IMG/VR virus record: IMGVR_UViG_3300032562_000003
Span: 124,001-188,000 of that record
DNA: 64,000 bases
Origin: a virus
Direction: 5' to 3' (one strand)
Position 1 is the first letter of the stretch. Each line of letters opens with the position of its first letter. This document shows, in pieces, positions 8,578-50,100 of this stretch. Below the pieces are notes generated by a model. The model saw nothing but the letters and a program-made list of their open reading frames with translations. It made no database searches and was not told the origin of the DNA. Both the position numbers and the translations under genes were made by a program.

Positions 8578-9418
8578 ATGACTATTTATCTATACAAGAA
8601 AACCCATAACATAACTGGATTAAAATACTTAGGTAAAACCGCACAATCTAATCCATATAAGTATCCAGGATCCGGAAAAATGTAGAGGTCGCATATAAAA
8701 ACACATGGGTATGATGTTACTACTGAAATATTACGAGAGTGTCACTCTAAAGAAGAGGTAGCAGAATGGGGTTATACTACTCTAAACTGTGGAATATAGT
8801 AGACGAGCGGGATAAGAATGGGAAGAAAACGTGGGCTAATCTAAAGTTTGAAGAGGGCGACGGAGGTGCAACTGTTTTTGGTGACAGCCATCATTCTAAA
8901 ACTATTGAATTTAAAAATAGAATTGATCACGCATGGACTCCCGAAAAAAGAAAAAAACAAGGTGATCTGTCTCGATCACGATTTTCGCACATGTCTACTG
9001 AAGACAAAAAACATATAAGAAAAAAAGCAATCGACACTAGAACTAAAAATAACCCAGATTGGAGGAAAGACTTATCTGATAGAATGTTAGGGAAAACAAT
9101 CCTTCAAAATCTAAAGAAGTAATAGAAAAGATAGCAGAAAGTAAATCAAACTGGAATGACTCCTTTCGAGAATATGTAATCAGTAAAAATTCTGGAATTA
9201 ATCATTACAGAAACAACCCTAATTACAAATCAACTCAATTTGGAAAGGGGCACCCTAATTATAACCCCAATGTATACTCATTTAAAAATAAAAATACACT
9301 AGAAGAAGTTAGAATGACAGTGTTTGATTTTATAAAAACATACAACCTACATCAAGGAAATGTAAGTTTATTAATGTCTGGAAAAAGAAAATCTGTACGC
9401 GGGTGGATGTTATCTTAG
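8578..9418 (+). pseudogene. Decayed GIY-YIG homing endonuclease
   Basis: The ATG at 8578 begins MTIYLYKKTHNITGLKYLGK, almost identical to the intact GIY-YIG protein at 17975-18682. The frame is broken by a TAG at about 8684, where the intact paralogue has Trp. It resumes (SHIKTHGYDVTTEIL, later KKTWANL), then shifts frame near 9085-9100. The shifted frame continues to 9418 with a NUMOD1-like end (YNLHQGNVSLLMSGKRKSVR). It lies convergent to the portal gene and overlaps its stop by a few bases. At least two disabling changes are present, so full-length product is not expected. Confidence 0.88.
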
Positions 9419-12400
9419 AAGCCGCCGCCCGGAGTTGCTCCAGGTCCGCCCATTGCTGATGGTTCTGCTGCTACATCGCCGCCTGAAACTGGCCCAGCAG
9501 TTTCCGGTGCTTCACCTTCCTGTTCGGAATTCTCAATCTGATCCGCAGTATTCATATCAGCATCAAAGTCTCCGCTGGATACACCTATGTTTCTAAGATC
9601 AGCACCCTGTGGTTCGCTAGTGACTTCTTCTCTGTTTTCTTCTTCCCAGAGCTTTTCGTTCTTCTTGATTTCTTCTTCTGAAAGACCTAAGAATCTTTCA
9701 AGGTTGAAGCGCTTTGACATGTATGGAATAGCATCCATAGCAGAGAACACTGATACTCGTGCATTATCTAACTCACTCTGACGGTAGGCTGCAAAGTTTT
9801 GCGGAGGATTAAAAGTTAGTTGGAAAAGACTAGTATCAATATTGAAGCCTCTCCAACGCAAGAATAACTTAAACTCTTCATCCAGCTTCAAGCAGATATA
9901 ATTCTGAAGTCTTTCACAGTATTGATTGAATCTAAATTCTTGAATCATCGCTGTGCCGACACGACCATCGTTCATGGGTGTAGTATTGTCGTCGGGACCA
10001 GTTGGTAAGTATGAAGACGGAACACGAAGTCCACGGGCAAGACGATTATTGAAGTACTTCAAGTCATCGATTTCACCTAGATTTTGTCCGCCCGGCAGAA
10101 CTTCAACAGATGATCCACGTCCTTCTGCTGTTACAGGGAAGAAATAGTCTTCGTTCATTGAGTTCTTTACAAATATACCAGCGTCGATAGCAAACGTATG
10201 ATAATCATGCCATTGATGACGCCCATCAATAGTTATAGTTCCAGTGTCTCTGTTACTTACCTTTTCAATCTTTACAATTCTATGGTTAAAATTGTCAATT
10301 TCTTTTACAAAATGTTTCCAATTTTTATATCCAAATTTAGAAAGAAGTCTGTCTAACTTACTGTACCCAAACTTATTAAAGTCTATTTTACATTGTGCAT
10401 TTTTATAATCCAATGGTGATGAATTAGCATTCTTAACCAAACTCAATAAGGTGCTATCATTATCACACCACTCCAGTACCTTATTTTTATTTTTATTACC
10501 TTGCTTAACCTGTTCTGCTACTCGTTGTACCATATCAAATGTCAAGATCAGTGGTTGATTTTTAATTTTAACTCTCTTTTCACAATTTGCACGAACTTTT
10601 TCCAAACCAACTGGATTACGATCAAAGTACTCTTTGCGCACTTGTTGCATACTAGATTTATATTTAGCCGCAGTTATAGGATCGTTCTTTCTAGCCCATA
10701 CAGCTTTTTGTTGCGCTGCTCTAATGTTCCAAAGACCGATTAGACGTTCTTCTTCGGTCATATTTTCCCAATTTTCTTTTAGAGTGGCCGAAGTTTTAGA
10801 CGTTATCTGCTTTCTATATTCATCTGACATCGTTTCCCAAAATTCTTTTTTCTGTGCAGCATGATATAAAACATGATCTGTTTTGTTCATGAATACTAGG
10901 TTTTTGGGTTCGTTATTAAATCTATTGTTATCTTTATGATGAATAACTGTTCTAGGTGCCATTGCGTATTCAGTTAGATAATTAAATTCTTGGTGCTTTC
11001 CTAAATTTCTAAAGAAATCCCCGACCATCCGATGAGTCCAAATCCATTTTTTACTCTCATGGTCCCATACCTGCTGGTAATCATTGGTTTTTCCGCCTGA
11101 AATATTTTTATTTTGAGTATTGAACGCAATTAGACTATCATTTTCAGTTAAATGTTGTGCTTCTACAAAGCCTTTATCAAACACAGGTATTTTATGGTCT
11201 GGTGTACAAACTAATGTTTTGCCGTTATCAAAAGTAAGTTTAATTACTTCTGTGTTTTTTCTAGTAATGCCAGCCCAATTAATTACTCCAGGTACTACTC
11301 TACCGGTTACTGGATCGCAGCTATACGCCCAATTTTCTTTTCCAGCTTCAAATTCAGTGATTATTTCTTGTAAAGACAAGGTTCTTCCATCTAAAAGTGG
11401 AATTTTAGTTTCTAAATCCAAACATAAAGGGTTATAAGAGGCGTCCACAATCGACTGTCCACCGTACGGTGAGGGAATTCTACGCTGGTGAATTTCGTTC
11501 TTTACTCGCTCAACAAATGCCATTGCTAAGTGACTTGGCATGTTACCAACATCGATCTTAAACATTCTACGTTCAGGTGCACGCTGCACACGATAGATAA
11601 GAACCGCATCTTCTAGTAGTTCTTTTTGCTTATAGACCTTAAAGATGTTTTCCAGTATAGATTGACCAAAAGGCCAAAATCTATCTAATCCTTCAGTTAA
11701 GGACAAGTGTACAATATGCTTACTGTCTACTGCTGATTCACTCTGACCTAATGTAAAACGACTTCCAGTCGTATTATATGGCATTGCCGGAACAGTGTAC
11801 GGGGTGTTAGTTCCGCCGCCACTACCACCTAAACCAGTTGCTGGGTTCGCAGCAAAGTCAGTATTGGTTTTCTGTGCTACTGATAAGTTTTGTAGATTGA
11901 TATTGATGTCTTTGATGACATACTGTTCCGGCTTCTTGCCCTCAGATTCGTTGACGATAACCTTAATGACCTTAACCATATCAACCCAGTATAGCTTAAA
12001 GTTTTCTGGGTCACGAACAAATACTTGGTCACCATACTTGACAACGTTTCTGAAAATCTTAAACATTCTCACGTCGAATTCATTTAGCTTGCACCACTGT
12101 TGTAGCTGCTTACCTAGCAATTCTACTTCACGTGGCGTAGGTTCTCCTTTGAATTCAAACGCAAACGGTGTCTTGTTATGTTCATTTCGCTGTGTAGAGA
12201 ACTCTGCTATGATGTCCAAACAAGCGTTGATTTCAGCATCAACGTCCATCATTTCGTATTGATTGTATCGTTCGATTCTGTTGGGGTGACCAGTGTAGAC
12301 TTCCGGTAGTCTACTTTGATAGTTTTTGTATCCAAATTCAGTATTGTTCCAACCACCAGTTGGCATACCGTTTTGTCCAGGCGACCCATTCCATGCTCCG

Positions 12401-12474
12401 GCATTACTGCTCGCACCAGAGATAGGACTCGAAACACCACTCTTGTTTAGAAATTTCTTCTTGTATCCAGACAT
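9415..12474 (-). CDS. 20: Portal vertex protein, T4 gp20-like, interrupted by an intein
   Basis: The precursor is 1019 residues; without the intein (residues 351-771) the portal is 598 residues, close to T4 gp20 (524). Portal blocks are NRIERYNQYEMMDVDAEINA, the wing region with KYGDQVFVRD, ERRMFKIDVGNMP, MNEDYFFPVTAEGRGSSVEV and DLKYFNNRLARGLRVPSSYL. The intein sits exactly between YNPL and SMNEDYFF, in the most conserved part of the protein, where imprecise splicing would be lethal. The C-terminus is acidic then Gly/Pro-rich. A late-type promoter (12498-12505) lies 23 bases upstream, overlapping the end of the preceding gene. Confidence 0.96.
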   Translation of the reverse strand: MSGYKKKFLNKSGVSSPISGASSNAGAWNGSPGQNGMPTGGWNNTEFGYKNYQSRLPEVYTGHPNRIERYNQYEMMDVDAEINACLDIIAEFSTQRNEHNKTPFAFEFKGEPTPREVELLGKQLQQWCKLNEFDVRMFKIFRNVVKYGDQVFVRDPENFKLYWVDMVKVIKVIVNESEGKKPEQYVIKDININLQNLSVAQKTNTDFAANPATGLGGSGGGTNTPYTVPAMPYNTTGSRFTLGQSESAVDSKHIVHLSLTEGLDRFWPFGQSILENIFKVYKQKELLEDAVLIYRVQRAPERRMFKIDVGNMPSHLAMAFVERVKNEIHQRRIPSPYGGQSIVDASYNPLCLDLETKIPLLDGRTLSLQEIITEFEAGKENWAYSCDPVTGRVVPGVINWAGITRKNTEVIKLTFDNGKTLVCTPDHKIPVFDKGFVEAQHLTENDSLIAFNTQNKNISGGKTNDYQQVWDHESKKWIWTHRMVGDFFRNLGKHQEFNYLTEYAMAPRTVIHHKDNNRFNNEPKNLVFMNKTDHVLYHAAQKKEFWETMSDEYRKQITSKTSATLKENWENMTEEERLIGLWNIRAAQQKAVWARKNDPITAAKYKSSMQQVRKEYFDRNPVGLEKVRANCEKRVKIKNQPLILTFDMVQRVAEQVKQGNKNKNKVLEWCDNDSTLLSLVKNANSSPLDYKNAQCKIDFNKFGYSKLDRLLSKFGYKNWKHFVKEIDNFNHRIVKIEKVSNRDTGTITIDGRHQWHDYHTFAIDAGIFVKNSMNEDYFFPVTAEGRGSSVEVLPGGQNLGEIDDLKYFNNRLARGLRVPSSYLPTGPDDNTTPMNDGRVGTAMIQEFRFNQYCERLQNYICLKLDEEFKLFLRWRGFNIDTSLFQLTFNPPQNFAAYRQSELDNARVSVFSAMDAIPYMSKRFNLERFLGLSEEEIKKNEKLWEEENREEVTSEPQGADLRNIGVSSGDFDADMNTADQIENSEQEGEAPETAGPVSGGDVAAEPSAMGGPGATPGGGF
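10162..11424 (-). mobile_element. HNH intein in the portal protein
   Basis: The element is 421 codons. It starts with Cys351 (CLDLETKIPLLDG, splicing block A). Block B reads GKTLVCTPDHKIPV with the T-x-x-H motif. An HNH homing domain follows (TVIHHKDNNRFNNEPKNL). The C-terminal blocks are WHDYHTFAIDAGIFVKN, followed by Ser as the +1 extein residue. The terminal Asn is kept, but the usual penultimate His is Lys. Intein type is therefore Cys1...Asn/Ser+1. The frame is intact through both exteins, so it is probably active in splicing. Confidence 0.93.
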
Positions 12475-12506: not shown

Positions 12507-15500
12507 CTATGCCATTGAATTACGTAATAACTTAGTCTGTGTACCGTGACTACTTTCAAGGACGGAGATTACTTTATCTAATTTATTTGCCATCATTCCA
12601 AACATTTCCGCTGTAATTTCTCCTGAATTACCAGAAGAATGAGGGTGTGCGGTTTTACCTTTAACTATAGTTTCTATTGCGGCCGCGTCAGTTGCAGGTG
12701 TTTTAGCTAATTTCATAAGCAAAGAATCTGGTCCTAAAGGTGCAACCAGTTCGCCGCCGTGCAATGTAGCCGGATATCCAGACAATGGCCCATCAAACAT
12801 TCCACCGTTTCTAGCTTGTAATTTTCCTTGTCTAAGTAGTGAAATATCCTCTTGCGCCCGACGCCCTACTTGTCCTGCCCACTTACTAGAAGATAATTGT
12901 GCGGCCGCGCCTTCAACATCACCAGCCGAAAGTGCAGCAGTTAAATGTGGCCACTTTTTGTACCAAGACGGGCCCATATTAAATGTCAAGTCTGTTAGCG
13001 CAGCTTGGCCTTTTTCATTTAATTTGTTGAATCCCGGAATATTGCTAGCAGCTTGTTTATGCTTGCCGAAATCCTGCTGGTAAAGTTTCATGACTTCATC
13101 CTTAGAGAACTCACGATTCCATTCAGGTGGTAAAGTACTACCGTCACCGATCAAATGACCCACCCCAATTGTCCATTTACCTAAGGAGTCTTTATATGGT
13201 TTAGTACGCACTCCTTCATGTCCTGCAATTAGATCCATTACCCAATTTCCAAATGACCCAATTGCACCTGCGGCGGCGCCACCGGCTTTTCCTAAGAAAC
13301 TTCCAGCTGCGCCCAACGCGCCGCCTGCTGCATGACCAGCTGCGCCCAACGCGCCTCCTGCTGCATGACCAGCTGCGCCCAACGCGCCTCCTGCTGCATG
13401 ACCAGCTGCGCCCAACGCGCCTCCTACTGCACCCACTGCTCCTGCCCCTAAAGCGGCGCCTGCTGCCATAGCTCCGCCGCCGCCGCCGGATGCTCCACCG
13501 CCTCGGAAGCTACCCATAGCAGTAGCGAACTTCAAGAATGCATCAGTGTTCTTGTCTGCATTAGGACCAAAATCCATCTTAGTGAACTTAAGGAATGCTT
13601 CAGTCGGGCTGTCTTGACCGAATAACTTGCTTAATCCGGAAACTGCTATATCTTTTATTGCTGTTCCCAAGCTTGGTCCGCCTTTATACTTAGACATCGC
13701 TTCCGAAAATGCTATTAATGCATCGGCGTTGGTTTTTACTTTGGCACCGTCGATAGGGAATGATTGGAAATACATTAGTTGCTTAGCAGCAATCTTTAGC
13801 GGATCTTCTTTACCTCCTCCAGTAAAGAAGTTGGCCATTCTACCCATTGCTCCAGCAACTTGTCCAGCGCCTATAGCAACGATGCCAACGCCTAATGCCG
13901 CCATACCTAAACCGGCTTTTTTAAGATTTTCGCCGTTAATGTCATTAAACGCTTTTAAACTCTTTCCCAAGCTTGGAAGCATTACGCTTATTAAGCCGCC
14001 GCCTATGGCCAAACCAGCACCGATACCGGTGATGATCGCAGCAAGAGCAACCCCTAATGCCACGCCGCCCTCCATAACCGCCGGCCCGGCCTTACCTGCT
14101 GCTGCTAGTGCTTCTACTAGACCCATAAGCATTCCGCCGCCGGCGGCTTTACTCATACCACCTACTGCCTCAGCGGCGCCGGCTGCTCCTTTCGGAGCAC
14201 CGCCTCCTAATAGACCCGCAAGTCCACCTGCTTTTCCTAATGCTGCTTTTCCTAAGTTAAATGTAACTAGCCCAAGAGCTCCTGCAAGTGCTACACCGGC
14301 TAAGGTTGCCAGAGTTAAACCATGTTGGAATGGATTCATACTATTAATTAACTCATCCATTCCAACTTTAGCTTTGATTTCTGCATTAGTTAACGCATTT
14401 CTCGCATCTTGTGCTGGATCTTCTGGTCCATTTTCAGCTACACTAGCTGGTTCATATCCAGCTAATTGGTTTGCTGTAGTGAGTGTTCCTGTATTAATAT
14501 TAGCCGCAGAAGCTAATCCTGAATTAACAGACAATGCTGTACTATTTTTAGTTGCAAAGTCTAATGTTTTATCAACCAAATCTTTTTGGAAGTCACCGGC
14601 CTCTTTAGTACCAAACGTTCCTGCGTTGACGGCTGACGCCGTTTTTGCATAATCCTGACCAGTACCTTGAAGTGCTAGAGCTTTTTGGAAAGGCCCGGAA
14701 ACAAAACCTTGTGTTATCTGTTGAGCCATGGCGGCGGCGGAGTCGGCGCCGCCTGTTCTTTGTGCAACTTGAACTGCGTTTTGCGCACTATCTATTTGCT
14801 TTTTTATAGCGTCCTTTTCAGCTTGAGTCTTTGCTGCGTCCATTTCTTTGTGTTTTTTAGCAAGAAATAGCTGGAATTGTATATTAGCCATCGACGCGGC
14901 TTGAGTTTTCTTCTCTTGTTCTACAGATTCTCCGGTAGCTGCGGACATCTCATTTAAATTTTTGATGTATGCAAGGGATGCACCTTGCAGACCACCGGTA
15001 GTCTTACTCAAATCTCGCAACGAAACACCACCTTCAGACATTAAGGTGTTGTAGTCAGCCTGAGCCTGCATTAGTTCGTCTACGCCATATCCCAATCTTT
15101 GAAATTGATTTCTAACCTTTTCGGTTACATGAACCTGTTCTGCAAACTTCTTAGTAGAATCGGCGGCTCCATTACCTAATGCATTGAAGGAATTACCCAT
15201 GCTTTGCATAGGTTTGAGCATTTTTTGAAAATCACCTGAGGCTAAACCAGCATTATTAGCCATCTTTTGAAGTTCGTTAGTGGTGAAAGTGTTAACAGCA
15301 CCTAACCTACTGATACCATCAGAAAATTTTAGTAAATTATCAGTTTGGGCGGTCGCTGCACTCACTACTTTAGTAAATGCAGCAGCTACTAAACCTGCAG
15401 CAACCCCAACGGGCCCCAAAGCTTTTCCTACTTGTATTGCGGCGGTTCCCATGCTATCTAAAGCTGATGTATATTTGTTTAACTCACCTGTACCGTTAAG

Positions 15501-15689
15501 TAATGCTTTAGCGAAGCTACCGGCAGCATCGTCTAACGATCTGAATGCTTTGTTGACGCTACCTACGCGAGTTGAAGCGTTATCAGAAGATTCGCTGAGA
15601 TTTTTTATTGCAGGAGAGGCGTCCCGGCTAATAATATCTGATAACTCTTTAAGCTGTGCGCTTAGCTCTGCTGCGATTTCTGGATCCAT
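12507..15689 (-). CDS. Tape-measure-like tail protein with C-terminal T4-type lysozyme domain
   Basis: The product is 1060 residues. The first ~450 are helical and tape-measure-like (ELSAQLKELSDIISRDAS onwards). A hydrophobic central region rich in Gly/Ala (about 450-620) could form membrane segments. A Gly/Ala repeat (GALGAAGHAAG, four copies) at about 752-795 is a linker. A GH24 lysozyme domain follows, with E825, D834 and T840 at exactly T4 lysozyme spacing (HEGVRTKPYKDSLGKWTIGVGH). The C-terminus resembles tape-measure ends. It probably enters the cell envelope during injection and cuts peptidoglycan. It lies divergent from gene 26. A role as gp29 equivalent is inference from length, composition and context. 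Confidence 0.8.
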   Translation of the reverse strand: MDPEIAAELSAQLKELSDIISRDASPAIKNLSESSDNASTRVGSVNKAFRSLDDAAGSFAKALLNGTGELNKYTSALDSMGTAAIQVGKALGPVGVAAGLVAAAFTKVVSAATAQTDNLLKFSDGISRLGAVNTFTTNELQKMANNAGLASGDFQKMLKPMQSMGNSFNALGNGAADSTKKFAEQVHVTEKVRNQFQRLGYGVDELMQAQADYNTLMSEGGVSLRDLSKTTGGLQGASLAYIKNLNEMSAATGESVEQEKKTQAASMANIQFQLFLAKKHKEMDAAKTQAEKDAIKKQIDSAQNAVQVAQRTGGADSAAAMAQQITQGFVSGPFQKALALQGTGQDYAKTASAVNAGTFGTKEAGDFQKDLVDKTLDFATKNSTALSVNSGLASAANINTGTLTTANQLAGYEPASVAENGPEDPAQDARNALTNAEIKAKVGMDELINSMNPFQHGLTLATLAGVALAGALGLVTFNLGKAALGKAGGLAGLLGGGAPKGAAGAAEAVGGMSKAAGGGMLMGLVEALAAAGKAGPAVMEGGVALGVALAAIITGIGAGLAIGGGLISVMLPSLGKSLKAFNDINGENLKKAGLGMAALGVGIVAIGAGQVAGAMGRMANFFTGGGKEDPLKIAAKQLMYFQSFPIDGAKVKTNADALIAFSEAMSKYKGGPSLGTAIKDIAVSGLSKLFGQDSPTEAFLKFTKMDFGPNADKNTDAFLKFATAMGSFRGGGASGGGGGAMAAGAALGAGAVGAVGGALGAAGHAAGGALGAAGHAAGGALGAAGHAAGGALGAAGSFLGKAGGAAAGAIGSFGNWVMDLIAGHEGVRTKPYKDSLGKWTIGVGHLIGDGSTLPPEWNREFSKDEVMKLYQQDFGKHKQAASNIPGFNKLNEKGQAALTDLTFNMGPSWYKKWPHLTAALSAGDVEGAAAQLSSSKWAGQVGRRAQEDISLLRQGKLQARNGGMFDGPLSGYPATLHGGELVAPLGPDSLLMKLAKTPATDAAAIETIVKGKTAHPHSSGNSGEITAEMFGMMANKLDKVISVLESSHGTQTKLLRNSMA
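13303..13434 (-). repeat. Four tandem 33-bp units encoding GALGAAGHAAG
   Basis: Units start at 13303, 13336, 13369 and 13402 and differ by only a few bases; the last is the most diverged. They encode the flexible linker before the lysozyme domain, so copy number can vary without breaking the frame. Confidence 0.9.
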
Positions 15690-15784: not shown

Positions 15785-16606
15785 ATGAACAATAACCCGC
15801 TAAGACAGTACTTCAGAAGACCTGCTGTTTACCTAAAACTCCCCTCAGGAACCACAAGCTACTCAGAGGACGTGATAAACATTCCAGTAACCGGCGAATT
15901 ACCAATCTATCCGATGACTGCTATTGATGAAATTACAGCCAGAACTCCGGATTCGTTGTTTAACGGTACTGCAATTGCTGAATTAATAAAAAGCTGTGTA
16001 CCTGACATCAAAGATCCATGGGCTATTAGTAGCAGTGATTTAGATGCTATCCTCATCGCAATTAAGTCTGCTTCCAACGGTGATCAATTGGACATAGATT
16101 CGATCTGTCCAAAATGTAACGAACTTTCTCCGTACGGCATCAGCTTAGTTGGTATATTGTCTACCCTTAAGGCAGGGGATTACAATAAGGAATTTGAAGT
16201 AGGTGATCTAAAAATTAAGTTTAGACCGTTGGTTTATAAAGAAATGAATGAAGCTTCTATAGCTCAGTTTGAAATGCAAAAACTGTTTGCCTCTATGGAA
16301 AATATGTCAGAAGAGGAAAAAAATAAAATAGGTGGTGATGCACTTGAACGGGTAACGTTGTTGACTATGAAATTATTAAGTTTAGGTATTGAATATATAG
16401 AAACACCAGAAATCAAGGTACAAGAAAATGAGTTTATTCTAGATTTTCTCAAGAACTGTGATCGAAATACTTTTACTTCTATTAGAGACTACGCTACAGA
16501 ACTTAAGAAAAGTTCCACACCACAGCCATTAAAGATAAAATGTGATAGCTGCGGACACGAATACGAGCAAGATTTCTCATTGAACCCTTCTGATTTTTTC
16601 GGCTAA
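15785..16606 (+). CDS. 26: Baseplate hub assembly protein, T4 gp26-like
   Basis: The 273-residue product matches the gp26-type baseplate family: N-terminal YFRRPAVYLKLPSGTTSY and LPIYPMTAIDEITARTPDSL, and two CxxC pairs, CPKC near residue 113 and CDSCGHEYE near 257, which could bind zinc. GAGGAA lies 6 bases before the ATG. It ends SDFFG with the stop only two codons after a slippery T TTT TTC. Ribosomes shifting -1 there would add 76 residues (see 16600-16830), giving about 348. In T4, 26 and 51 are adjacent separate genes; in lambda-like phages tail chaperones use the same trick. It is the first gene after a divergent late promoter. Confidence 0.88.
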   Translation: MNNNPLRQYFRRPAVYLKLPSGTTSYSEDVINIPVTGELPIYPMTAIDEITARTPDSLFNGTAIAELIKSCVPDIKDPWAISSSDLDAILIAIKSASNGDQLDIDSICPKCNELSPYGISLVGILSTLKAGDYNKEFEVGDLKIKFRPLVYKEMNEASIAQFEMQKLFASMENMSEEEKNKIGGDALERVTLLTMKLLSLGIEYIETPEIKVQENEFILDFLKNCDRNTFTSIRDYATELKKSSTPQPLKIKCDSCGHEYEQDFSLNPSDFFG

Positions 16607-16643
16607 AGCTTCTACGCTCTAAACCCGAAGAGATTCAGAAGCT
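16594..16643 (+). promoter_or_regulatory. Programmed -1 ribosomal frameshift signal
   Basis: The heptamer T TTT TTC (16594-16600) is in phase with gene 26. The zero-frame TAA follows at 16604. Six bases after the heptamer a stem begins: AGCTTCT (16607-16613) pairs with AGAAGCT (16637-16643), with an inner CTCT/AGAG (16617-16620 / 16629-16632). The -1 frame is closed by TGA at 16591, directly before the heptamer. Confidence 0.75.
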
Positions 16644-16830
16644 ACTAGATGAGTATGAAAAAGACGTAGCGGGTATACGCAAATCTGCACTTACTATGGC
16701 ATGGTACATGCGCGGTGGCGCTTCATATGAGGACATCCTCAACATGTCTATAGAGGAAAGAAAGGCTATCAACGATATAATTGATAGCAACCTAGAAACT
16801 ACAAAGAAATCCCAGCTACCATTCTTCTAA
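16600..16830 (+). CDS. -1 frame extension of gene 26 (gene 51 position), expressed by frameshift
   Basis: This frame runs 76 codons from the slip site to TAA at 16828 and reads RLKLLRSKPEEIQKLLDEYE, then DVAGIRKSALTMAWYMRGG, ASYEDILNMSIEERKAINDI and a final KKSQLPFF. It has no ATG, GTG or TTG start before the internal Met codons in the conserved-looking middle, so it needs the -1 slip to be read whole. Composition (helical, charged, ending in LPFF) fits a tail assembly chaperone extension. It is far shorter than T4 gp51 (249 residues) and I do not claim homology. The zero-frame and shifted products would be made in a fixed ratio. Confidence 0.72.
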   Translation, partial: RLKLLRSKPEEIQKLLDEYEKDVAGIRKSALTMAWYMRGGASYEDILNMSIEERKAINDIIDSNLETTKKSQLPFF

Positions 16831-16836
16831 CCGACA

Positions 16837-16866
16837 TAGAGAGAACTATTCATTTAATTCTCTCTA
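16837..16866 (+). terminator. Hairpin just after the 26/frameshift unit
   Basis: A perfect 9-bp stem TAGAGAGAA / TTCTCTCTA with a 12-base loop follows the stop by 6 bases and is followed by TTTCC. The stem is AU-rich and the T tract short, so it may be a weak terminator or the first helix of the structured region. Confidence 0.45.
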
Positions 16867-16886
16867 TTTCCATATCTACTTAGGTT

Positions 16887-16972
16887 AGAGTATCTTTTAG
16901 AGTTGTCCTTACGGACAACTTATATCTCACTACGTTCGATATATTCTTTTTAATTGTCTTAAAGAATACTCT
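16887..16972. ncRNA. Predicted three-way RNA junction
   Basis: AGAGTAT (16887-16893) pairs with ATACTCT (16966-16972), and the helix extends inwards with one bulge. Inside are a perfect 8-bp hairpin AGTTGTCC-TTAC-GGACAACT (16901-16920) and TATATC/GATATA (16921-16942). On the plus strand it is followed by AGGAG and an ATG at 16986 that opens only MPDWKPW. Confidence 0.5.
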
Positions 16973-16979
16973 CTAGGAG

Positions 16980-17362
16980 TTATACATGCCGGATTGGAAG
17001 CCATGGTAGTGCTATTCAGCACTACCAATGGTATTAGGGGCCATGCCATGGACCTTCCACCGTTGCTGTCTATCCCCCGTCAATCTAGCGTTTGTTGCTG
17101 ATTGACGCTACCGGTTGCACTGTAAAGTTTGCTAGGGCTGTAGTGAAGCTGACCACCCCTTAGGGGAAGTTCTTCTGCAACGCATGTTCTACACCTTCAA
17201 GACAGAATAGACGTGTAGACTCATTCAGGGTTCGCATTCTACCAAGCGAGAGCCCTGTCGGTATTCCCGAACATCATGGATTCCATGATGCTCAGCAGAC
17301 TCCAGATCCGCGCCATGATATCTCGCATGTCGCTCAAGGAGAGTCGAGGTACCCCGACCAAA
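16980..17362. ncRNA. Candidate large structured non-coding RNA
   Basis: About 380 bases without a credible gene on either strand, GC-richer by eye than flanking genes, and nearly all pairable. Hairpins seen: 17001-17031 (GGTAGTGCT/AGCACTACC), 17079-17106 (GTCAATC/GATTGAC), 17156-17166 (CCCC/GGGG), 17188-17219 (TCTACAC/GTGTAGA), 17226-17257 (CAGGG/CCCTG with TCGC/GCGA), 17258-17270 (TCGG/CCGA), 17272-17290 (CATCATGG/CCATGATG) and 17298-17345 (GACTC/GAGTC). GTTGCA (17114) can pair with TGCAAC (17176) to enclose some of these. It lies between convergent units. Strand and function are unknown; no tRNA, tmRNA or RNase P features and no convincing group I core were found. Confidence 0.55.
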
Positions 17363-17387
17363 CGCCAATATAGGGTTCTGTGATTTT

Positions 17388-35155: not shown

Positions 35156-38100
35156 ATGGCCCGAATTCGGACAATAACTTTTCTTCCTGAGATTTTTCAA
35201 ACCTCAACTAACGCGGAATTTTTGTCAGCGACCCTAGATCAGATCGTAAATCCACCGAATACGATGAAGATTCAAGGCTATGTAGGTAGCAAGTTTGGAT
35301 ATGGTGTAAATGCAACTGACAATTATGTAGTTGAACCAACAAAAACTCGGGTGAACTATCAGTTAGATCCGGGTGTAGTTTTTACTAAGCCAAACGAATC
35401 TGTAGCAAACGACTTTATCTCGTATCCAGGCATCATCGACTCTATTGCAATGCAAGATAGTATTACGGATAACAACAGTCGTCTATTCAAAAGTCAGTTT
35501 TATTCATGGGACTCCTTCACTAACCTCGACAAGCTCATTAACTTTAATGAATATTACTGGTTGCCAGTCGGGCCGCCGGCTGTTACTATCTCAGCAGCAA
35601 CCGTGTACTCTACTGAAAATTATGCAGTCACATCACTACCTAATGGATATGAAATTGCTCTAGTCGGACAACCTATCGGTAGCATCAATCCTACACTTGG
35701 ATTGATCCGCGGAGGAACCTATACTTTTGCTGTAAATCAATCGTCTCAGTTTTGGATTCAGACGGATCCGGGTACCTCAGGATATTCGCCATTCCAATCG
35801 AATCTTACTACTAGACAAGTATACGGAGTAGACAACAATGGCGCAAGTCAAGGTGTTGTTACGTTTACTGTTCCGCAAAAAAATGCACAAGATCAATATA
35901 TTTTTCCAGGTAACAACACTGTCGATCTAGTCAGCACTAAATTGTTTGACCAAGTAAATGGAGCAGTTTTAAAGACATTTACTGACACGGATGGCGTAAC
36001 ATATCAAGGACTTAATGACATTGATGGCGTGACTGCGCTTGAAGGGTTACGCATCATGTTCTATTATGATGGTATTCCGGCAGAGAAGGGAAACACAGAG
36101 ACCTTCTTGAGCGAGACACCGCTGGACATCAATAGTGATGTTCTCGTCGCACCAATCGTTATAAATGTAACTAGCTGTGATGCTTCTGCGTTTACTACAG
36201 ATAGTACCTCTCAATTAGTAGTCGGTCAAACTGTAACCTTTAACAACCCAACATTCGGTGGAGTTACTGCAGGGGAAGTCTATTATGTTCATAGTATTCC
36301 TACTTCAGGTACATTTACTATCGCGTTGACTCTAGATGCTTCGTCTCCGTTAACTTTGGTTCCTGGATCAGGTACTATGGTTGCCAATATCAATCAGGGT
36401 CTATATGAAGAAAGTGTCGCATCAACGGTGTTTGAATACTATTACTTGATTGAATACATCGGTGATCCAAAGAACCCAACTATTCGTTTAGTTCCAGATG
36501 GTACTATTCCTGTAAATCAAACAATTACTCCATTATATGGTACTCAATGGAACAATATACCATTTTATCGTTCACCTACCGGAGTAATTAATCCAATTCC
36601 TGTTATCACTGCTCCGTTAGATGTTCTATATTATCAAGACGGTACATCTGCTGATTCTGTCGGCGTGATTAAAATCATTGACAGCAATACTACAAATACT
36701 ATTAATGTTGTGACTGAAATCTTGGGTAACCCTAATTATACGTCATCTAGTGGAGTAGTATTTACTAATGGATTGAAAGTTAACTTTCAAGGTGACATTA
36801 TTCCTACAAGTTATTTACAGGGACAATACTATGTACAGGGTGTAGGAACTGCAATTGAGTTAGTTCCAGTAAGCTCTCTAGTCTGTACTGAAGATTTTAC
36901 ACATGGTAATTACATTCCATATGATTCTACACCATATGACATTAGCAATTACGATTCGGACCTTTTTATTCCAACAGATAAAGACTATATTACTATTGCT
37001 AGAAACGCAATCAATAAAAATGCTTGGTCCAGAAGCAATCGTTGGTTCCACATCGATGTCATCAACGCAACTGCAAAATACAATAACGACCCTAATATCG
37101 CAACTACTTACGCGACACAAGCAAACAAAGCAGTCCGCCCTATAATCGAGTTTTATCCTAATCTAAAATTATACAATTCGGGTTCTGTAGGCGCCGCAGG
37201 AATCGATTTTATCGATACCCATAACACTGATGCATTGTCAACAGTAGCAGGATCTTACAATTATTACCCAGATACAGAAGTACTTACTACAGCATCGGCG
37301 TCGGTTGTAGGAGTAACCGCCGCAACATCAACTACCTTTAGTGTAGACGCTGCTAACGTTTCGGGTACATTCCAAATTGGAATGTATGTTGCAGATTCTT
37401 CAAGCATTCTTCCTAATAATACACAAATTACCGACATTACTGGTACTACTACGCTAACTGTAACAGTTTCATGGCCCGGCGCAAAAAACATATCCTCTGC
37501 TTCAAACTTGTCTATTGTGGGTTCAGACACTACTTTAGATAACTATGCTTTGTTTCCGGAAGCAAGAATCGTATTTGCTGCTGACTCTAGCTCTACTGTA
37601 AGAAACAAAATCTATGTCGTAAACTTCTCGGTAATTGATCCTAATACTAGACCTGTAATTACACTCACGGTAGCAGAAGACGGAAATATTGTCCCTGATG
37701 AACAATTAGCAATTAAGCGTGGTTATTATCACCAAGGCACTAGTTACTATTATGATGGTATAAAGTGGATACAGGCACAACAAAAGGTTACGGTTAACCA
37801 ACCACCGCTGTTTGACGTTTTTGATGCCAACGGTATTTCTTTTGGGGATTCTTCGGTCTATCAAAGTACTTCGTTCAAGGGGTGTAAACTTTTCGCATAC
37901 AGTGTTGGTAGCGGAGTCAATGACCCTATATTAGGCTTTCCAATCGCATATTCTGGTATAGATAACGTAGGGGATATTAGTTTCGACGTATCACTGAATT
38001 TGGATACATTTAATTATGTGTCTGGATATAATCCTATTAATCAAAAGGTAAATACTGGCTACGTATATAATTATACATCAGGTACATCATATGTAAGACA

Positions 38101-41100
38101 GCTTGGTTGGCAAACCGCAATTGCTGATAGCACGCAATATCAATTATTCAGTTTTGACTTTGATCCTACAAATCCAACATTAAGTTTCCAGTGTGACGTT
38201 GCAGCATTGCCTGCTTTAGCAACGGGAGAAACTGGTTGGCCGAGAGTTAAGGTATACATCAACAATGTATATCAAGCACCAACATCATATGCTACGGTAG
38301 TTGGTACCAATACTACCACAATTACATTTAACAGTAGCAGTTCACTACCAACAACTAGCACGGTAGTTCAAGTATTAGTATTGAGTGATCAAGTAAGCCA
38401 AATCGGTTACTACGACATTCCTATTAATTTAAATAATAATCCATTAAATGCTGATTTAACTACAGCCAATGTTGGTGATATCCGTGCACAGTATAGAGAC
38501 ATTTTTATTAATTCACCAAACACGACAGGTGAAATTTTCGGCGCAAATAATTTTAGAGATTGCGGTAACTTAGTACCATATGGTACAGAGATAATTCAAA
38601 ACTCTGCGTCATTAGTACTGCCGGGAACCTTTTTCCGAAACACGCAGCACAACTTGTTTGACGCATTGATGTTTAACAGCCGTGAATATATAAAGTATAA
38701 ACAATTACTAGTATATACGGTACAAAACACAGATTACGTTCAGCGATACACTCCGTCGCAAATTCTGGATAGCGCACTAGACCAGATTACTGCTGCAAAG
38801 AGCGAAATCAACGCATTCTTTTGGTCGGACATGTTACCGTCAAAGGCTCCGTACCGCACCAACACGTACACGTTCAATAATCAACTGGATACTTCTGTTT
38901 ATCCATTAAGCAATGTTTATAATTTTGAAACTGCTAACTATAGCGGCGTTCTTGTTTATGTGTTGAGAACAGTCGCTGGTGTAGTAGTTGAACGACAACT
39001 TACTAGTGGCATAGATTATATAATAAGTCCGGATGCCCCTTCGCTCACTATCATTAGCCCGCTTGGTGATGGCGATAAGGTCATCATTAAAGAATACAAC
39101 CAAACATACGGCTCATATATTCCTAATACACCAACTAAGTTGGGACTATATCCTTCATTTTATCCAGAAGTAGTTTTGGATTCAGATTACACAGTTCCTA
39201 CTTACTTCATCAAAGGACATGACGGATCGTTCACTAAGTTATACGGTGACTATGACGAAACATTAGGAGTATTGATTGATTTCAGAGACCAGGCTCTGCT
39301 TGAGTTTGAACTAAGAATTTACAATAATTTAAAATTAAGCACAACTGTTCCTATCGAGCGATACGAAGTTGTACCTGGTTACTTCAGAAGTTCTACATCA
39401 ACATATTCATGGAATGAATTTATACAGATGTACGAACCTACGTTCTTGAACTGGATTGGTCAAAATCGTCTCGATTATAAGTCCCAGTACTATCAAAAGA
39501 ACAACGAGTTCAGTTATAACTATACAAATTCAGGTAATAAACTAGACCAAGCTGCTATTCAGCAAGGTTATTGGAGAGGGGTCTATGAATATTTCTATGA
39601 CACAACTACTCCAAACGAAACTCCATGGGAGATGTTAGGATTTGCTAATGAACCAACCTGGTGGGCTGATCGTTACGGACCTACTCCTTATACGAGCGAT
39701 AACGGTATTCTATGGGGTGATTTAGAAGCTGGTTATATTTGGAATAACGGTAATCCCTACACCGTACCTGAGTTAGCACGTCCTGGACTATCTAAAATTA
39801 TTCCGGTTGACTCCAACGGCGATTTGTTGTCTCCGCTAATCGCAATTGTAGGCAACTATAATCCAAGTACGTTCCAAAAAGATTGGGTAGTAGGAGATGA
39901 TGCACCTGTGGAGTTGAGCTATCGACGTAGTTCAACTTGGCCATTTGATTTAATGAGACTATTTGCACTGACTAGACCAGCTGAATTTTTCAATTTGGCC
40001 GTCGACCTTGACAATTACAAATACAATGCTGAATTTAATCAATATTTGGTTAATGACAGAAGCCATTTAGTTCCTGCAAATATTGAAATTTATGGTAATG
40101 GTACTGCAAAAACCAGCTACATTAACTGGATTGTAGATTATGAAAAGCAACAAGGGGTTGACGCAACTACTAACATTACAACCCTTTTGAATAACCTTGA
40201 TGTTCGTCTGGTTTATCGTCTTGCTGGATACAGTGACAAAACATTGCTTCAATTCTATGTGGAAAAGGGTTCGCCTAATAGCAATAACGCAACACTATTG
40301 ATTCCTAACGAAAGTTATTCAGTGTTGTTATATGACAATCAGCCCTTCGATCAGATTATGTTCAGTGGCGTGGTCATTCAGAAAAATCAAGGCTATTGGA
40401 CTGTATACGGTAATTCACAAACATTTGCATACTTTAAAACACTAAAACCTATCAATAACGGTACATACGGTAGTGTTGACGTTTTAGGTACTACAGTTAA
40501 GTATGCTAAAAACTATACTGATCAAGTAGTTCTTGTTCCATACGGTACCAAATTCTACAGCACTCAGGGAGTAGTTCAATTCCTAATGAGCTATGGTGCC
40601 GAACTTGAAAGCCAGGGCATGTTGTTCAATGAAGTTGAACAAGGAATTGAAGTCACTTGGGCACAGATGGCAGCAGAATTCTTGTATTGGTCAATGTCCG
40701 GATGGGAAGTAGGAAGTCTGATAACACTAAATCCGTCTGCTACTGCAATAAACATTGATAGACCAAGCGCGATAGTTCAGCCGCTTACGGTTCAGCAAAC
40801 TAACTTTATACTAAATCAAAATCTCTATCCGATACAACTAAATGATCTTTGCGTTGAACGTGACGATACATTATTCCATGCGCACACCTTGAATCAGGGT
40901 GATTCTATGTCTTATGCTCAATTTAACGTAAGTAATTTCGAGCATGGTATCGTATTCGATAATGTCACTTTGTTTAATGATATTATCTATAATCTAACTA
41001 CTGGACTAAGACAAAACCGCATCTACGCTCGCGGGGTCAAGACTGCTGATTGGAACGGAACCGTAAACGCCTGGGGCTTCATTTTAAATCAAGACAACGT

Positions 41101-44100
41101 ATTAGAATGGAATGGTAATCTAAAGTATACTAAAGGTGTTATCGTACAATATAAGAATAAGTATTGGACTGCACTTAAAGTAATAGAACCATCCGCGACA
41201 TTCAACGAGCAAGATTGGAAGCTCGTGAATTACAATGACATTCAAAAAGGAATGTTATCAAACGCTTCTACTCGTGCATACGAAAGCACACTATACTATG
41301 ATGTTTACCAAGCAAATCTTGAACAAGATGCCGACTTGCTTGCGTTCTCACTTATTGGATATAGACCACGCGACTATCTTGCTCTGGTAGACCTTACAGA
41401 TTCTACTCAAGTTCAAGTCTATCAAAATTTGATCAAGAACAAGGGAACCCGCAATGCAGTAGATGCATTCCAAGGTGCTACTTTCCCACAAGGTAGTATA
41501 TCTTATGATTTCTACGAAAACTGGTCTATTTTAACTAAACAATATGGTGGAGTGCTGAATGAAAACTTCGTTGACTTCAGAATAAACCAAACAAATCTTA
41601 TGGGTAATCCATCAATTGTTAGTTTGACAAATGGAGTATACACGGTTGGTTCAGACCAAGAAGTTCCACTATACAATTTATTCAATTATAACACACCACC
41701 AGCATCACCGAATGTATTGTCAACACTAGACACTACGGTTAATTCACAACTGTACCCATCCGCCGGATACATCAACGTAAATGATGTTAAGATGTCATCA
41801 TATTTCTTCTCTGGATTGCCTTCTGCGGTTGACAGTACCGGTGCAGTTGTTCCTATTAATAATTTCTACGTAGGTGAATATTTTTGGTTAGCTAACTTTA
41901 AAAATAAATGGGACGTATTTAGATGGACCAATATTGGTCAAGTAATTCAAGTTAGAAATAATACTAACGGAACAGCAACCATAACGTTCAGTTCTCCGCA
42001 TTCTCTCAATAAGCTAGATCCGATGGCCATCATTAACTTCGCGCAGAATGTTGATGGATATTATATAGTCGCTGATGTTCTAAATCTTTATGAAGTTGTA
42101 ATAAATCTATCTGCACTAAATGCAAATCAAAATTCAATTCAAGGCAGAGGGTTAGCCTTTGGGTTCGTGTCGCAACGAGTAGCATCACCTGCAGGAATAA
42201 TTCCGTTAGCATCTGCTGAAAACGAATTTATCAAAAACACTGTTTGGGTAGACGAAAACACTGACGGCAACTGGGCAGTCTATCGCAAGAGTTTAAATTA
42301 TGCTTATCAGAACCAATTTGAACAGGCCGATGGCGGCACATTTGGTTCTGCTGTCGCATATACATCTGATATGGGTTACCTGATAGGTGATTCCGGCACA
42401 GGGATTTTGTATAGATACATATACGACAGTTTAGCTCAAGCGTACCTTCTGAAGGAAAACAAGACCGGCGGAACATCGTTTGGTTCAACAATAAAGTACG
42501 CCCAAAATCTATATGCAGTATCTCAACCTTCTGGCGTATCGCCAGCAGTAACGTTGTACACCTTAAATCATACGGTTGTTACTGATCGTATGTTAACATA
42601 CCAAACCATAGCCGCGCCCGGAGGAGTAACCGACTGGGGCAGTGCATTAGCTATTTCGGGTGACACTAATTGGCTTTACATCTCTGATGCGCAAAACAAC
42701 AATGTATATGTATATCGCAAGCAAAATATTCCTCTAATTGCAGGATACTTTGTGACCGGTGAAACATATGTTATCACGTCATTGGGTAGTACAGACTTCA
42801 CTGCTATCGGTGCAGTAGACAACAAAGTAGGTATTACTTTTGTTGCAACTGGCGCCGGCGCCGGCACCGGTACTGCGACCCAGATTACATACAAGCAATC
42901 CACTATCATAAGCGGGTCATCTTTGTTCAGTCTAGGGGCCGGTGACGGATTCGGGACTGCGCTTGCAACATCATATGACGGTAGCACTCTAGCGGTAACC
43001 GCACCGTTTATCGACTATAGCCCAACGATAACAAATTGGGGTACAACATTTGTGCTACAACGCACGATGCAAAATTTTGAAGCAAAACAAAATTCGCTCC
43101 CTGAGCAGACAACTTCTTTCTCATTGTCTTGGACTCCAGCTGCTGGCGCCACTATAACAGCAAGTGCAACCTCTTCGGTAACAAATAGAATTACTTGCAG
43201 CGGATCAATGACTGGATTCCAAATCAATCAACCAGTAGTATTTGCAGGTAGCAATTTTGGTTCAAGCAATGTTTCACCTAATCAAGTCTACTACATTCAC
43301 GGTATTTCGGGTAGCGAAATATCAATAAAAACATCACGATCAAGCACCACTCCTGTAAATCTAACTACTGCGGCTGGTCTATCGTTCTCTGTTTATGTAC
43401 AAGTTGATCCTCTTTATGTGTATCTCAACGGTAAATTGGTTACTGATGACAATTACGCAGTAATTGGTACATCGTTTATCTATTACAGTTCATTGATTGC
43501 AGGTGACATTTTAACTGTGAGCGACAATCAATACTTCCCTGCGCAACAAATCAATTCTGATTATATTGACAGAACAGATATTGAATTTGGTTATGCGGTT
43601 GATATGTACAAAACCGGGTCAACACTTCTAATTGGTTCACCGTACGAAGTTGATGCAAATGATGTCGAAGGTGCAGTATACTCTTATGTTAACGGTGGCG
43701 CCGAATATGGCGTAGTGATCGGAACGAATGAATGTAACGTAACTACCAACCGCACGTTGTTGATCAATGGATTCGCAGTAAATCTCTCTGCTGGAAACGC
43801 ACAATCAGTTGCGAACACGATCAATTCTAGTAAGATTATCAATGTACAAGCAGCAGCGACTAGTGATAATAAATTGATTATTCAAGTAATCAATCAAAAT
43901 ATCGCTCAGATTAATCAAAAGTTAACTGTGTATGCATATGATAGTGGTACTACGCTTTCTGAACTCGGTATAAACCTGTACACTAAAACTCAGATTATTC
44001 AGTCTCCTCACGAGCAAGGTGCATCTAGATTCGGGTCTGCAATCAAGATCAATGAATTCGATAGCGTTATAATTTCGGCTCCGGTAGGAACACGATATGA

Positions 44101-47100
44101 AGGCACCTTCTTTGACTTTACTGATGACGAGAATTTAGACAATGATACGGTCTTCGATAACAATGCAACTCAATTCGTAGATTCCTACGTTAATGCAGGC
44201 GCAGTTTACATGTTCGACTATATTGGTCTATACAATGAGAGTCTAGCAAATCCGGGCGCATACGTATATGCACAGAGCGTAAACAGCAAAAACATTCCAT
44301 ATGGTCAACAGCCTCTTTATGGAACAGCGATTGATTTTAATGAAAATGTCGTAGTTGTAGGTAGTCCTAATTTCTATCCAGTAGCCGTTGGCGGACAAGT
44401 AGTAGTTTACAACAATGCAACTGGTGTTTCTGACTGGTCAGTATACAGAAATTCTGCACCTATCGTTGATATCAGTAAAATTCAAAATACTCAAATTTTC
44501 AGTGCTTCTACTAATCAAACGCTAATCAATTTGGATTATATGGATCCTTTACAAGGTAAACTGCTGGGCGCAGCAAGAGAAAACCTAGACTTTGTTTCTG
44601 GAACTGATCCGGCACGATATAACAGTGATCTATCAACCATCATCGGTTCGGTCTGGGGTGCAGAGCACGTTGGTCAACTATGGTTCAACACAAACAATGT
44701 TCGTTGGATGAATTATCATCAGAATGATAATGTTTATAATAGCAAATATTGGGGTGCAGTATTTCCGGGCTCAGATGTTGCAGTTTACACTTGGGTAGCA
44801 AGCTTTGTTCCGCCCAATTCATATCCAGGCCCCGGCGCAGTTTATAACCCTAATCTATATGTAGTGAGCACGGTATTAAATGCATCAAATAATGCAGTCC
44901 CTGTATATTACTTCTGGGTTAGCAATACTAATATAATATTTGAACAGACCGGTAAAACATTATCCGATTCGGTTGTTGCATCTTATATTTCAAATCCAAA
45001 AGGATCCGGTATTGCATATATGGCACCGCTGCTACCTAATACATTTGCATTATATAACTCAGTAGATTACTTTAATGCGAATGACAGTGTTTTCCATATT
45101 GGATTTGCAAATGGAACAACAGATGACGTTGCTCACCAAGAGTACGCATTGATTCGTGAGAATTATCAGGATGACTTCTTGCCAGGTCTACCTCACGGCG
45201 GAACTTCGGCGCACACATTAGCAATTCAAGGCGGATATACTATTTCTGAAACAGACGTACCGTATTCATTGTACGCAAAACTTCTAGACTCTTTGGCAGG
45301 CTGCGACGGCGCAGGAGCAGTTGTCCCTAACCCATGGTTACCACTAGCTGTTCAGTCGGGAATTCGAAGCCGCCCAAACCAAAGTTTCTTCTATGATAGA
45401 TACCTTGCAATTAACAACTACTTGACGTATGCAAATACTGTTCTAGCACAATATCCTATTGCAGAAATTAGACCAGACGCAACATTCTTGTTCCAATCCG
45501 GTACATACTTCAATACTGCTGATTATTGGTCATACGTCAATTGGTGGGCAACAGGATATAGCGATAGCACCAAATCTTCGCTTCAAGTGCCAAACTATGC
45601 AGATTTGGCAGCGTTAAATGTTGCAGTCAACACTATCGTAACAGTAGAACAAAACGGCGCAGGTAAGTTTGAAGTATATCGATATGATGGTTACGGTGTT
45701 TGGACACGTATCGGTCTTCAAAACGGTACTATTGCATTCGATACTAGCCTCTGGGATTACTCCTCAGCTAAGATTGGTTATGGTGATAATTTCTTTGATA
45801 CAACACCTTATGATCAATATCCAAGCGAAGAAACTCGATATATCGTCCGCGCATTAACTGAGCAAATTTATATCAGCGACTTGCTAATATATCGAAACAC
45901 GAGCCTAATTCTGTTGTTCGACTACATCCAGAGCGAGACTACTCAATCTCAAAATTTCTTGCCTTGGTTGAATAAGACGTCCTTGGCTGATGTATCGCAT
46001 ACTATTCGTGAGCTAATACCATATGAAGTTTATCAAACAGATAATACTGCATTCCTGTCAGGATACATCAATGAAGTAAAACCTTATCACGTTGTAATCA
46101 AGGATTTCGTGTTTAAATATACCGGAACTGACGTATATCAAGGTAACATCACAGACTTTGACCTGCCTGCAACTTACAATTCGTCGTACCAGCAGTATAT
46201 TTCACCTCAGTTAGTGTATAGTAATCCTAACAGTCAGTATGAATATCTTCCTACTGACAGCATTTGGTCTACGGCTCCGTATACACAATGGTTCCAAAAT
46301 CACGGTGTATCTATTACAGGTCAACCAAACTATAACATCACAGTAACTACTTCCTATGTGAGCACAAGCTCAACCTACATCGTAGTTGACAATGCACACG
46401 GTTTCCCAATTAACGGTACCATTAATATCGGAAATGAAATCATCGGATATTCATTTGTAGATAGAGCATTGAATGTACTAAGTGGATTGGTTAGAGGTGT
46501 AAACGGAACTCCTATTGAAAATCATATAACCGGCGCCCAAATTTATATTGATTTACCAGCTGCATTGGTACTATTCGGAGGCCGCGGCTACGTTGAACCA
46601 CCTAAGGTTACTGCATATATCGATACAAGTATATATCCTGCACCGAAAACTCCGGCAGTTCTAGAAGCAGTAATGAACCTCGATTCTGTGTTACAGATCA
46701 ATGTAATTGATCCTGGCGAAGGATACGCAGTTCTTCCTGAAATTGTTATTGATCCGGCAGAAGTAATTGCGTTTGACAATACCGCAGTTAACGGAACGTT
46801 TCACACTATTAGACTTTATGCTCCTAATCTACAGACTGGTGACGCCGTTCTATATAAATCCGGAATAACAGCATCAGTGGGTGCATTGGCAAACAATCAA
46901 TGGTACTACATTAATGTATTAGAGACAGTTCCTACAGCTATCATTGCTCTCTACACAACCTATAGTGATGCGATAAATGATAAAGCTAGAGTTAAAATTT
47001 ACCCAATTGGAATTGGAAGTGATATGACTCTAAGTTCAGGCGCGAGAGCATCCGCTATCACGACGGCATTGCCGATTAGAGAAAACAATACTACAATACG

Positions 47101-50100
47101 TTTTGACAGAACTACATATGGTTCTCAGGTACAAGATTGGGAGGCTGGCGCATATTACGGATCGTTCTTTGCTGGTACGCTAGACAACAGTAGCACAACT
47201 TCAAGCTCATCCATTGGATTAGAAAGCACTGAACCACCAATCGACAGTATTTTGGCTAGTGCCCAAGGCGCAGTATTTGAAATTACCGACATAAGCAACG
47301 ATCAGCAGCTTACCTGGTCTTCATTTATAAGATATGTATCCGGAACAACAGCAAGCAATCATTCTATTACTCTGATTCCACAAGATAACGGAGGAGGACA
47401 ACCAAACGCATCTGGTACTACCATCGGTTTCTATATTGGTATGCCGGTCAAATTCCAGTCGACCTTGTCGTTTGGTGGACTAGTGTCCAATCAAATATAC
47501 TATGTGAATACTATTCTTAGTGAAACTGAATTTACAGTGTCAACTACCGTCGGTGGTCCAATATTTGGTGTAACTGACTCTGTGGTAGGTGTCTACACAA
47601 TGGAATGTTTTGTTGGTGAGGTAACTAATACTGCGGTAATGTCTATTAATTATCCTGGCATTCTACAAGTTACTGCCACCACAGCAACAACTAATGCATT
47701 GACTGTTCCAACTAGTTTGGTTGGTACCGGTGGAACTTTAGGTTTCTATACCAACTTACCGGTCTTCTTCACTGAAGATGTATTCGGTGGAATTGTAGCT
47801 AATAAAACATACTACGTTACAAGTGTGATAGATAATCAAACATTTACTATGTCTGCGACTACCAATCCAGTATCTACCACTGCATATTCTGTCGATGGTT
47901 CTACCGATAGAGTCGCAGTAAATGATGGCACTAACTTTAACATCAATGATATTGTGGTCTTTACTGATATGGTTATTGCAGGAACAAGCACTACTAATTT
48001 CGGTGGCTTAGTAGCTGGTACATTCTATTATGTCAGTGGAGTTTATCTCTCAAGTAAAGAAATAACTCTCTCTGCTACAAAGAACGGAGCAGTATTAAAT
48101 CTTACTACAGTTGTTGCTGCTTCTGATACCAGTGCAATAATGACAAATCAAAAGGACACGGTTGCACTAACAACTGCGGTTGGTTCAGCAACTATGAATG
48201 TGTCTTTACCAATAAGCCCTGGACAAATTAACGGACAACTGTTTACCATTTATGAAACTTCGGGCCAATACCCTAATAATATTGTATCCGCAGGTGAAGT
48301 TTCTTCGCTTATATCTCGCAGCATTAACGCAACGATTTCAGCAGTTAATAGAATTGCAGTCAGTGCTTCACTGGGTGGAACAGATTTCTTCTACAAGAAT
48401 ATGCCTATTAGAGTTACTACTAACATAGGTAACCTAGTAGCGGGTACAACATACTATATTAGAGAGTACACTGGCGACGGCACAAACACTGTAATTGAAG
48501 TAACTGTAACTAATACATCAAGTTCTGGTAATGTACTAAGTTGCGGTTCAACTGCTTCTCTGTATATAGGAATGCCAATAGTATTTTCGGGACAATCGTT
48601 GGGTGGTATCTTTGTAACAGAGACGTACTATATTCAGGATATTCCTAGTAGTACAACGTTCACCTTGTCTCTGACCGTCAGCGGCCCGGCAATTACGTTG
48701 ACAAATGATAATGGAGTCATGACCGGCGCTGGTGATCCATTCTTTACGGTTTCTACTACAGTTAATGGCAGCGAGTTTGCACTGTCATCTGATCACACTA
48801 CGGTATCAACTGCAACACAATATGTAACTGGTTATACTACATTCGATTTGTCATACAAGTTAGGTGGGTACAGTGCAGTTCCAACAAATGCAGGATCCGG
48901 ATTTGCAGTCAATAATATAATTACTATTCCGGGTACAGCAGTCGGAGGAACGTCACCGGCTAATGATATTACTCTTGAAGTCAATTCGGTTGATGCATTA
49001 GGTGGAATCATTAATGTTATTGCATCGGGTAATGTACCATCTACATCTACTAAGTACTACCTAAAAGTTATCTCATCAAATCAATTAGAAGTCTACAGCA
49101 ATCCTCTGTTAACTGTTCCAGTAAGCGGTATCAACTTCCCATTCAATGGGTATACCACTACTACAGTTCAGAGTGTATCATCAAATATAATCACAGTTAA
49201 TAGTACAACTGGATTCAATGTGAATGATGCAGTAGTGTTTACTGGAAATGTGTCCGCCGGCATTGTTGCAGGGCAAACGTATTACATTGTAAATAATGTA
49301 AACTTCACATCCAACACCTTACAGATAAGCAGCACCCCTGGCGGAACAGCTATCACCTTGTCTAATGCATCTAGTTTGTCATATACTATGGCCAAATCAG
49401 GTAGTTATGCGTTCTTACCTGAACCATTCTACTTTAATCAATCGATTGTGAAATTCAACAATAAAGTCTATATCTGTGTCATATCTAACAACGATAAAGA
49501 ATTTGTTATAGGCAAGTGGGAGGAATTGGATTCAGGTGATCGTAGACTTAATGCGATGGACAGAGTTATGGGTTACTATAAACCAACTGTCAATATGCCT
49601 GGTGTGGATCTAACTCAGCTATTCGATGGGGTAACTTATCCGAATTCAATATACCTGGGTAATGCATTCCAACCTAATCAACAATTTGCGTTAGATGTGG
49701 TTGTACAAGATCAGCCATTCTATCCATCACAAGTCAACATTACTGCGGTAGAGTACCATAACAATGTATACCATGCAGTTGCCAACTTACCTACATATTC
49801 TGCACTTCTTACTAGTGCCGATGGTATAACATGGGCTATAACTCAACTAGCAAATACTGATATAAATGTAACTAATATTGTATACAACAATGGTACTTAC
49901 TTAATTTCCGCCGCTAACAATGCAACTCCTATTCTTACTAGTGTGGATGGTCTAGTTTGGACAGTAGCAAATACTACTGAACATTCCTCGCAAGCGGCTG
50001 CATACGGTAATGGTTGCTGGATATCAGTAGGAGACAATATCGTTCGTAGTACCGATGCAATAACATGGAATACAGTACACACGTTTGATTCTATTTTTGA

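Follow-up and report, generated by a model that had tools for sequence, protein, structure and literature searches.

The closest described systems are the G/GT genes of phage lambda and the tail chaperone genes of the T4-like phages. In lambda, both the short and the extended form made from G/GT attach to the tape measure protein, with the tail tube subunits being recruited by the extension (PMC5009743). T4 was named in the same 2016 review as an exception to the conserved G-T frameshifting (PMC5009743), and its gp26 and gp51 have been tabulated as hub assembly chaperones, gp51 being absent from the virion (PMC3004832). The tail assembly chaperone genes of T4-like phages were identified by Vladimirov, Gautam and Davidson (2022, Virology 566:9-15; cited in PMC10885494 and PMC12846349). 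The citing papers describe some T4-like phages in which a short gene and a longer, fused gene take the place of frameshifting (PMC10885494), and poly-T slippery sites in the TAC-N genes of T4-like phages (PMC12846349).

We analysed a stretch of 64,000 nt, here called the window, which covers positions 124,001-188,000 of the IMG/VR virus record IMGVR_UViG_3300032562_000003 (258,859 bases). The locus studied belongs to a large (jumbo) T4-related phage of an aquatic jumbo-phage clade. Our analysis suggests that it very probably yields two chaperone lengths from one mRNA by a programmed -1 ribosomal frameshift. As in lambda G/GT, a small tail gene would yield a C-terminally extended chaperone when a minority of ribosomes slip into the -1 frame close to its 3' end. 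Unlike in lambda, the N-terminal protein is larger and the candidate tape measure gene is divergent, while that of lambda lies downstream; no sequence relation between the two systems is shown. The slippery heptamer of lambda also differs from the T_TTT_TTC found here. The features, in positions of the window, are as follows.

12507-15689, minus strand: divergent 1060-aa neighbour with a lysozyme domain (Phage_lysozyme, E=1e-16), a candidate for the tape measure protein
15785-16606, plus strand: gene 26 homologue of 273 aa, the short tail assembly chaperone form (TAC-N), from PF12322, phrog_150 and BFVD
16594-16600, plus strand: slippery heptamer T_TTT_TTC in phase with gene 26 (classical X_XXY_YYZ phase), from sequence and conservation
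16600-16830, plus strand: -1 frame extension (TAC-C), 76 codons plus TAA at 16828-16830, from the -1 frame reading, conservation and gp51 homology
16604-16606, plus strand: zero-frame stop TAA, one sense codon (GGC) past the heptamer
16607-16613, plus strand: 5' arm of the lower helix of the predicted stimulator stem, 6 nt past the heptamer, from pairing and compensatory changes
16617-16620, plus strand: 5' arm of the upper helix, from covariation among relatives
16629-16632, plus strand: 3' arm of the upper helix, from covariation among relatives
16637-16643, plus strand: 3' arm of the lower helix, pairing with its 5' arm

The product of gene 26 is recognized by several searches. It matches PF12322 (T4_baseplate) in the Pfam scan with E=3e-18 and 66.8 bits (curated cut-off 24.5) and phrog_150 in the PHROG scan with E=5e-17, and its fold matches in BFVD are T4-like baseplate hub assembly proteins (best E 2e-23). 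A fold search of the short form against the PDB gave no matches. The PF12322 gene is single-copy in the record by profile search. The 1060-aa neighbour is the obvious candidate for the tape measure protein, judging from its length, its Ala/Gly-rich composition and its position upstream of gene 26, and its Phage_lysozyme domain is internal, near the C-terminus. No tape-measure profile matched this neighbour in the Pfam and PHROG scans, and pairwise comparison with the gene 26-neighbour proteins of PA5oct and 121Q gave no significant match. The window also holds a gp20-like portal protein gene (9415-12474, minus strand), split by an intein that contains an HNH endonuclease domain, and, in the tail region, one uninterrupted reading frame of 18.9 kb or 6297 codons (35156-54049, plus strand).

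The slippery heptamer is conserved at the level of its codons. The 3' end of gene 26 reads ..GAT TTT TTC GGC TAA. When IMG/VR was scanned with gene 26, the matches listed, which are a sample of the best ones, contained 70 loci that are distinct at the join; TTTTTTC is in phase in all 70 and stands one codon ahead of the stop in 69 of them. A further scan, with the extension as the query, gave 66 distinct loci, many on contigs that overlap the first set, and again all 66 have TTTTTTC in phase. Across 37 divergent sequences, gene 26 has 29 columns whose amino acid is two-fold degenerate and never changes. Just three of these columns are also fixed at the codon level, and they are the slip-site codons GAT, TTT and TTC; the mean top-codon share, for comparison, is 0.70. 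On these comparisons, the arrangement of the heptamer and the -1 frame is not due to chance.

The -1 frame is under protein selection without a start codon of its own. A TGA (16591-16593) abuts the heptamer. With the codon after the slip numbered 0, no ATG, GTG or TTG occurs in this frame until the ATG of codon 32, leaving 31 start-free codons. Reading on from gene 26 into the -1 frame at 16600 gives a predicted fused product of 348 aa. The extension is exactly 76 codons long in all 69 complete gene 26 relatives among the matches listed (the 70th runs off its contig), and the complete extensions among the 66 loci found through it likewise all have 76 codons. Over this region the -1 frame has zero stops, against about 7 per sequence in each other frame, and the sequence variation is concentrated at -1-frame third positions. 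By mean column identity, the extension (78%) is no less conserved than gene 26 (72%). The frame is closed directly ahead of the heptamer in 36 of the 70 relatives listed. A search of bacterial genomes did not find the extension. The AlphaFold model of the extension is mostly helical with low confidence (pLDDT 69). The extension is separated from the next gene by about 550 bases (16831-17387) that contain no plausible gene; about 0.8 kb is also unannotated in the equivalent place in 121Q, XbC2, CBB and GAP32, and an Rfam search that included 16831-17387 gave no match.

That the break between the two frames falls at a T run could point to a sequencing error in a single true frame or to a decayed gene with the extension as its relic. 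The initial annotation had itself listed an error at the T run among the findings that would overturn its reading. Such an error is excluded by the identical join sequence in contigs from five separate metagenomes; moreover, the same structure is seen in all relatives and in isolate genomes, and a relic would hardly be kept at the identity given above. We regard the probability of an error or decay as negligible.

Comparison with T4 supplies the identity of the extension. Scanned by itself against Pfam and PHROG, the extension matched nothing above chance level, and the phrog_634 profile had no match in the studied phage, PA5oct or 121Q, so that a profile-profile comparison was needed to establish homology. 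With hhalign, the alignment of the extension matches the C-terminus of T4 gp51 with a probability of 87% (E=4e-6), and the fused full length matches gp51 with a probability of 99% (E=1e-20). By these alignments the -1 extension is homologous to the C-terminus of T4 gp51. T4 gp26 and gp51 are themselves paralogues and both full members of PF12322 (E = 9e-64 and 4e-52, respectively), and of the two only gp51 has the extra C-terminal piece. T4 gp26 aligns with the short form found here and stops at the equivalent of the slip site (..LKEFFELL), but T4 gene 26 has no heptamer. Since gp51 is a gp26 paralogue carrying the extension, the unshifted product would be the equivalent of T4 gp26 (TAC-N) and the fused product that of the entire gp51 (TAC-NC). 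The abstract of the 2022 study reportedly treats T4 genes 26 and 51 as separate short and long forms; our paralogy and C-terminal comparison give the same assignment independently.

In T4, genes 26 and 51 are two separate genes that diverge on opposite strands, in contrast to the one frameshift gene here. The initial annotation had put a startless ORF in the position of gene 51, which needs correction, since T4 gp51 is a whole gp26 paralogue plus the extension and lies on the opposite strand. It had further proposed that a fused form would link the two arrangements. The link is real but not new, as it was published by Vladimirov et al. (2022). Compared with the T4-like systems of that study, as far as the citing papers describe them, the protein family and the short/long logic are the same, while the extension here is longer, at 76 codons versus about 50-60, and its early part is free of start codons. 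The general arrangement in T4-like phages is thus already in print in those accounts, and the aquatic jumbo clade is an unusually clean start-free case with a covarying stem.

The heptamer and the extension are widespread among named phages. T_TTT_TTC followed by a -1 extension is found in Atu_ph07, Phosso, PA5oct, 121Q, XbC2, CBB, GAP32 and fEgEco12 and also in P-SSM2, S-PM2, KVP40, PhiW-14 and Vibrio phage 2.275.O. The extension is likewise present with the heptamer variants T_TTT_TTT (HTVC008M and Cr30) and T_TTT_TTG (phiM9). CBA120 (Ackermannviridae) has a -1 extension after gene 26, but ATTTTC and no T6 heptamer at the equivalent place, and may use another slip site or initiation mechanism. 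Each of the 12 jumbo-phage records searched has one PF12322 copy, duplicates having been sought in these records and none found, versus two copies in T4, RB43 and CPt10. In the Campylobacter phage CPt10 the two separate PF12322 genes are about 10 kb apart, and one has a gp51-type C-terminus.

Alternatively, stop-start coupling or reinitiation could lead to translation of the extension as a small gene in its own right. The extension is annotated as a separate gene in 121Q (gene 595), in P-SSM2 and S-PM2 (gp51) and in KVP40, and in these four phages an ATG overlaps or closely follows the gene 26 stop, where independent initiation could contribute. However, 46 of the 70 relatives listed lack an ATG, GTG or TTG over the opening 15 codons of the extension, and PA5oct lacks one throughout its extension. 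The conserved residues already begin at the codon immediately past the slip site, and the heptamer is codon-frozen even in the relatives that have an ATG. In addition, T4, RB43 and CPt10 carry the same extension fused in frame to a gp26-like body. Separate translation is hence quite improbable as the general explanation.

A stem with two helices starts 6 nt past the heptamer, and it is predicted to be a downstream stimulatory RNA structure; such structures are common, though not universal, in frameshift sites of the lambda G/GT type. The lower helix consists of the A16607-U16643 pair and the pairing of 16608-16613 with 16637-16642 (GCUUCU/AGAAGC). Over 67 distinct sequences, 98.8% of its cells are paired, and seven cells are compensatory: in six sequences U-A replaces C-G, and in one A-U replaces G-C. 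When the partner strand was slid along as a control, the pairing fell to 39-67%. The upper helix, in which 16617-16620 pair with 16629-16632, covaries too, in two registers that differ by a shift of one between groups of relatives. The stem of the studied sequence is only modestly more stable than those of its shuffles (z -1.65). As the fold energy in the window is itself unremarkable, the case for the stem is a comparative one, built on covariation. In several named relatives, the downstream structure is predicted to be weak or absent.

The site being a homopolymer run, with a longer T run in HTVC008M, a shifted mRNA could in principle arise through transcriptional slippage on the T6 run and not through ribosomal frameshifting. 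Transcriptional slippage usually needs runs longer than six. Throughout the clade the run has merely six Ts and is interrupted by a C, and its codon phase is invariant. Such a phase, together with a stem that is both spaced and covarying, fits ribosomal slippage. We therefore consider slippage in transcription very unlikely, somewhat more so than separate translation of the extension.

The ribosomal frameshift had been put forward in the initial annotation as one of the lambda G/GT type. That reading, made from a single sequence, described an in-phase T TTT TTC with a zero-frame stop soon after it, a two-part stem from 6 bases past the heptamer and a 76-codon -1 frame closed by a TGA before the slip site and startless before its middle; its coordinates and description proved accurate. 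It also called for a comparison of the gene 26 3' ends of relatives, in which the heptamer and the -1 frame are conserved as given above. The comparative evidence from the slip site, the stem and the -1 frame strongly supports the proposal.

The observed slip site, stem, conserved -1 coding frame and short/long homology to gp26 and gp51 are best explained by the following mechanism. Most ribosomes would stop at the gene 26 TAA and release TAC-N, the short form of 273 aa. In a minority, the stem-loop that starts 6 nt past the heptamer would cause a pause; these ribosomes would slip back by a single base while both tRNAs sit on U_UUU_UUC and then read on through 76 codons, giving the 348-aa long form (TAC-NC). 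Both the slippage and its rate are inferred. The role as chaperones is suggested by the lambda pair gpG/gpGT. On that model, the tape measure protein may be coated with many copies of the short form and a few of the long one, whose extension may bring in subunits of the tail tube or hub; neither form would remain in the finished tail.

We speculate, giving it an even chance, that the single-gene frameshift is ancestral in the tail chaperones of the T4 superfamily, from marine cyanophages to 490-kb jumbo phages, that the two-gene form of T4, RB43 and CPt10 arose through a duplication, after which an in-frame fusion took place and the slip site was lost, and that the covarying stem sets the short:long ratio in the jumbo clade. 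For T4 these steps would then fall within the Straboviridae, because KVP40 still has the slip site.

Our analysis adds weight to the view of T4 gp26 and gp51 as the short and the long version of a tail assembly chaperone; their long-standing labels are baseplate hub subunit and hub assembly catalyst. If this view holds, T4 would be no exception to the G/GT rule. The downstream ORFs annotated as gp51 or hypothetical in many jumbo phages and cyanophages are probably the C-terminal parts of a frameshift product. With its start-free extension and frozen slip codons, the aquatic jumbo clade makes a clean test system.
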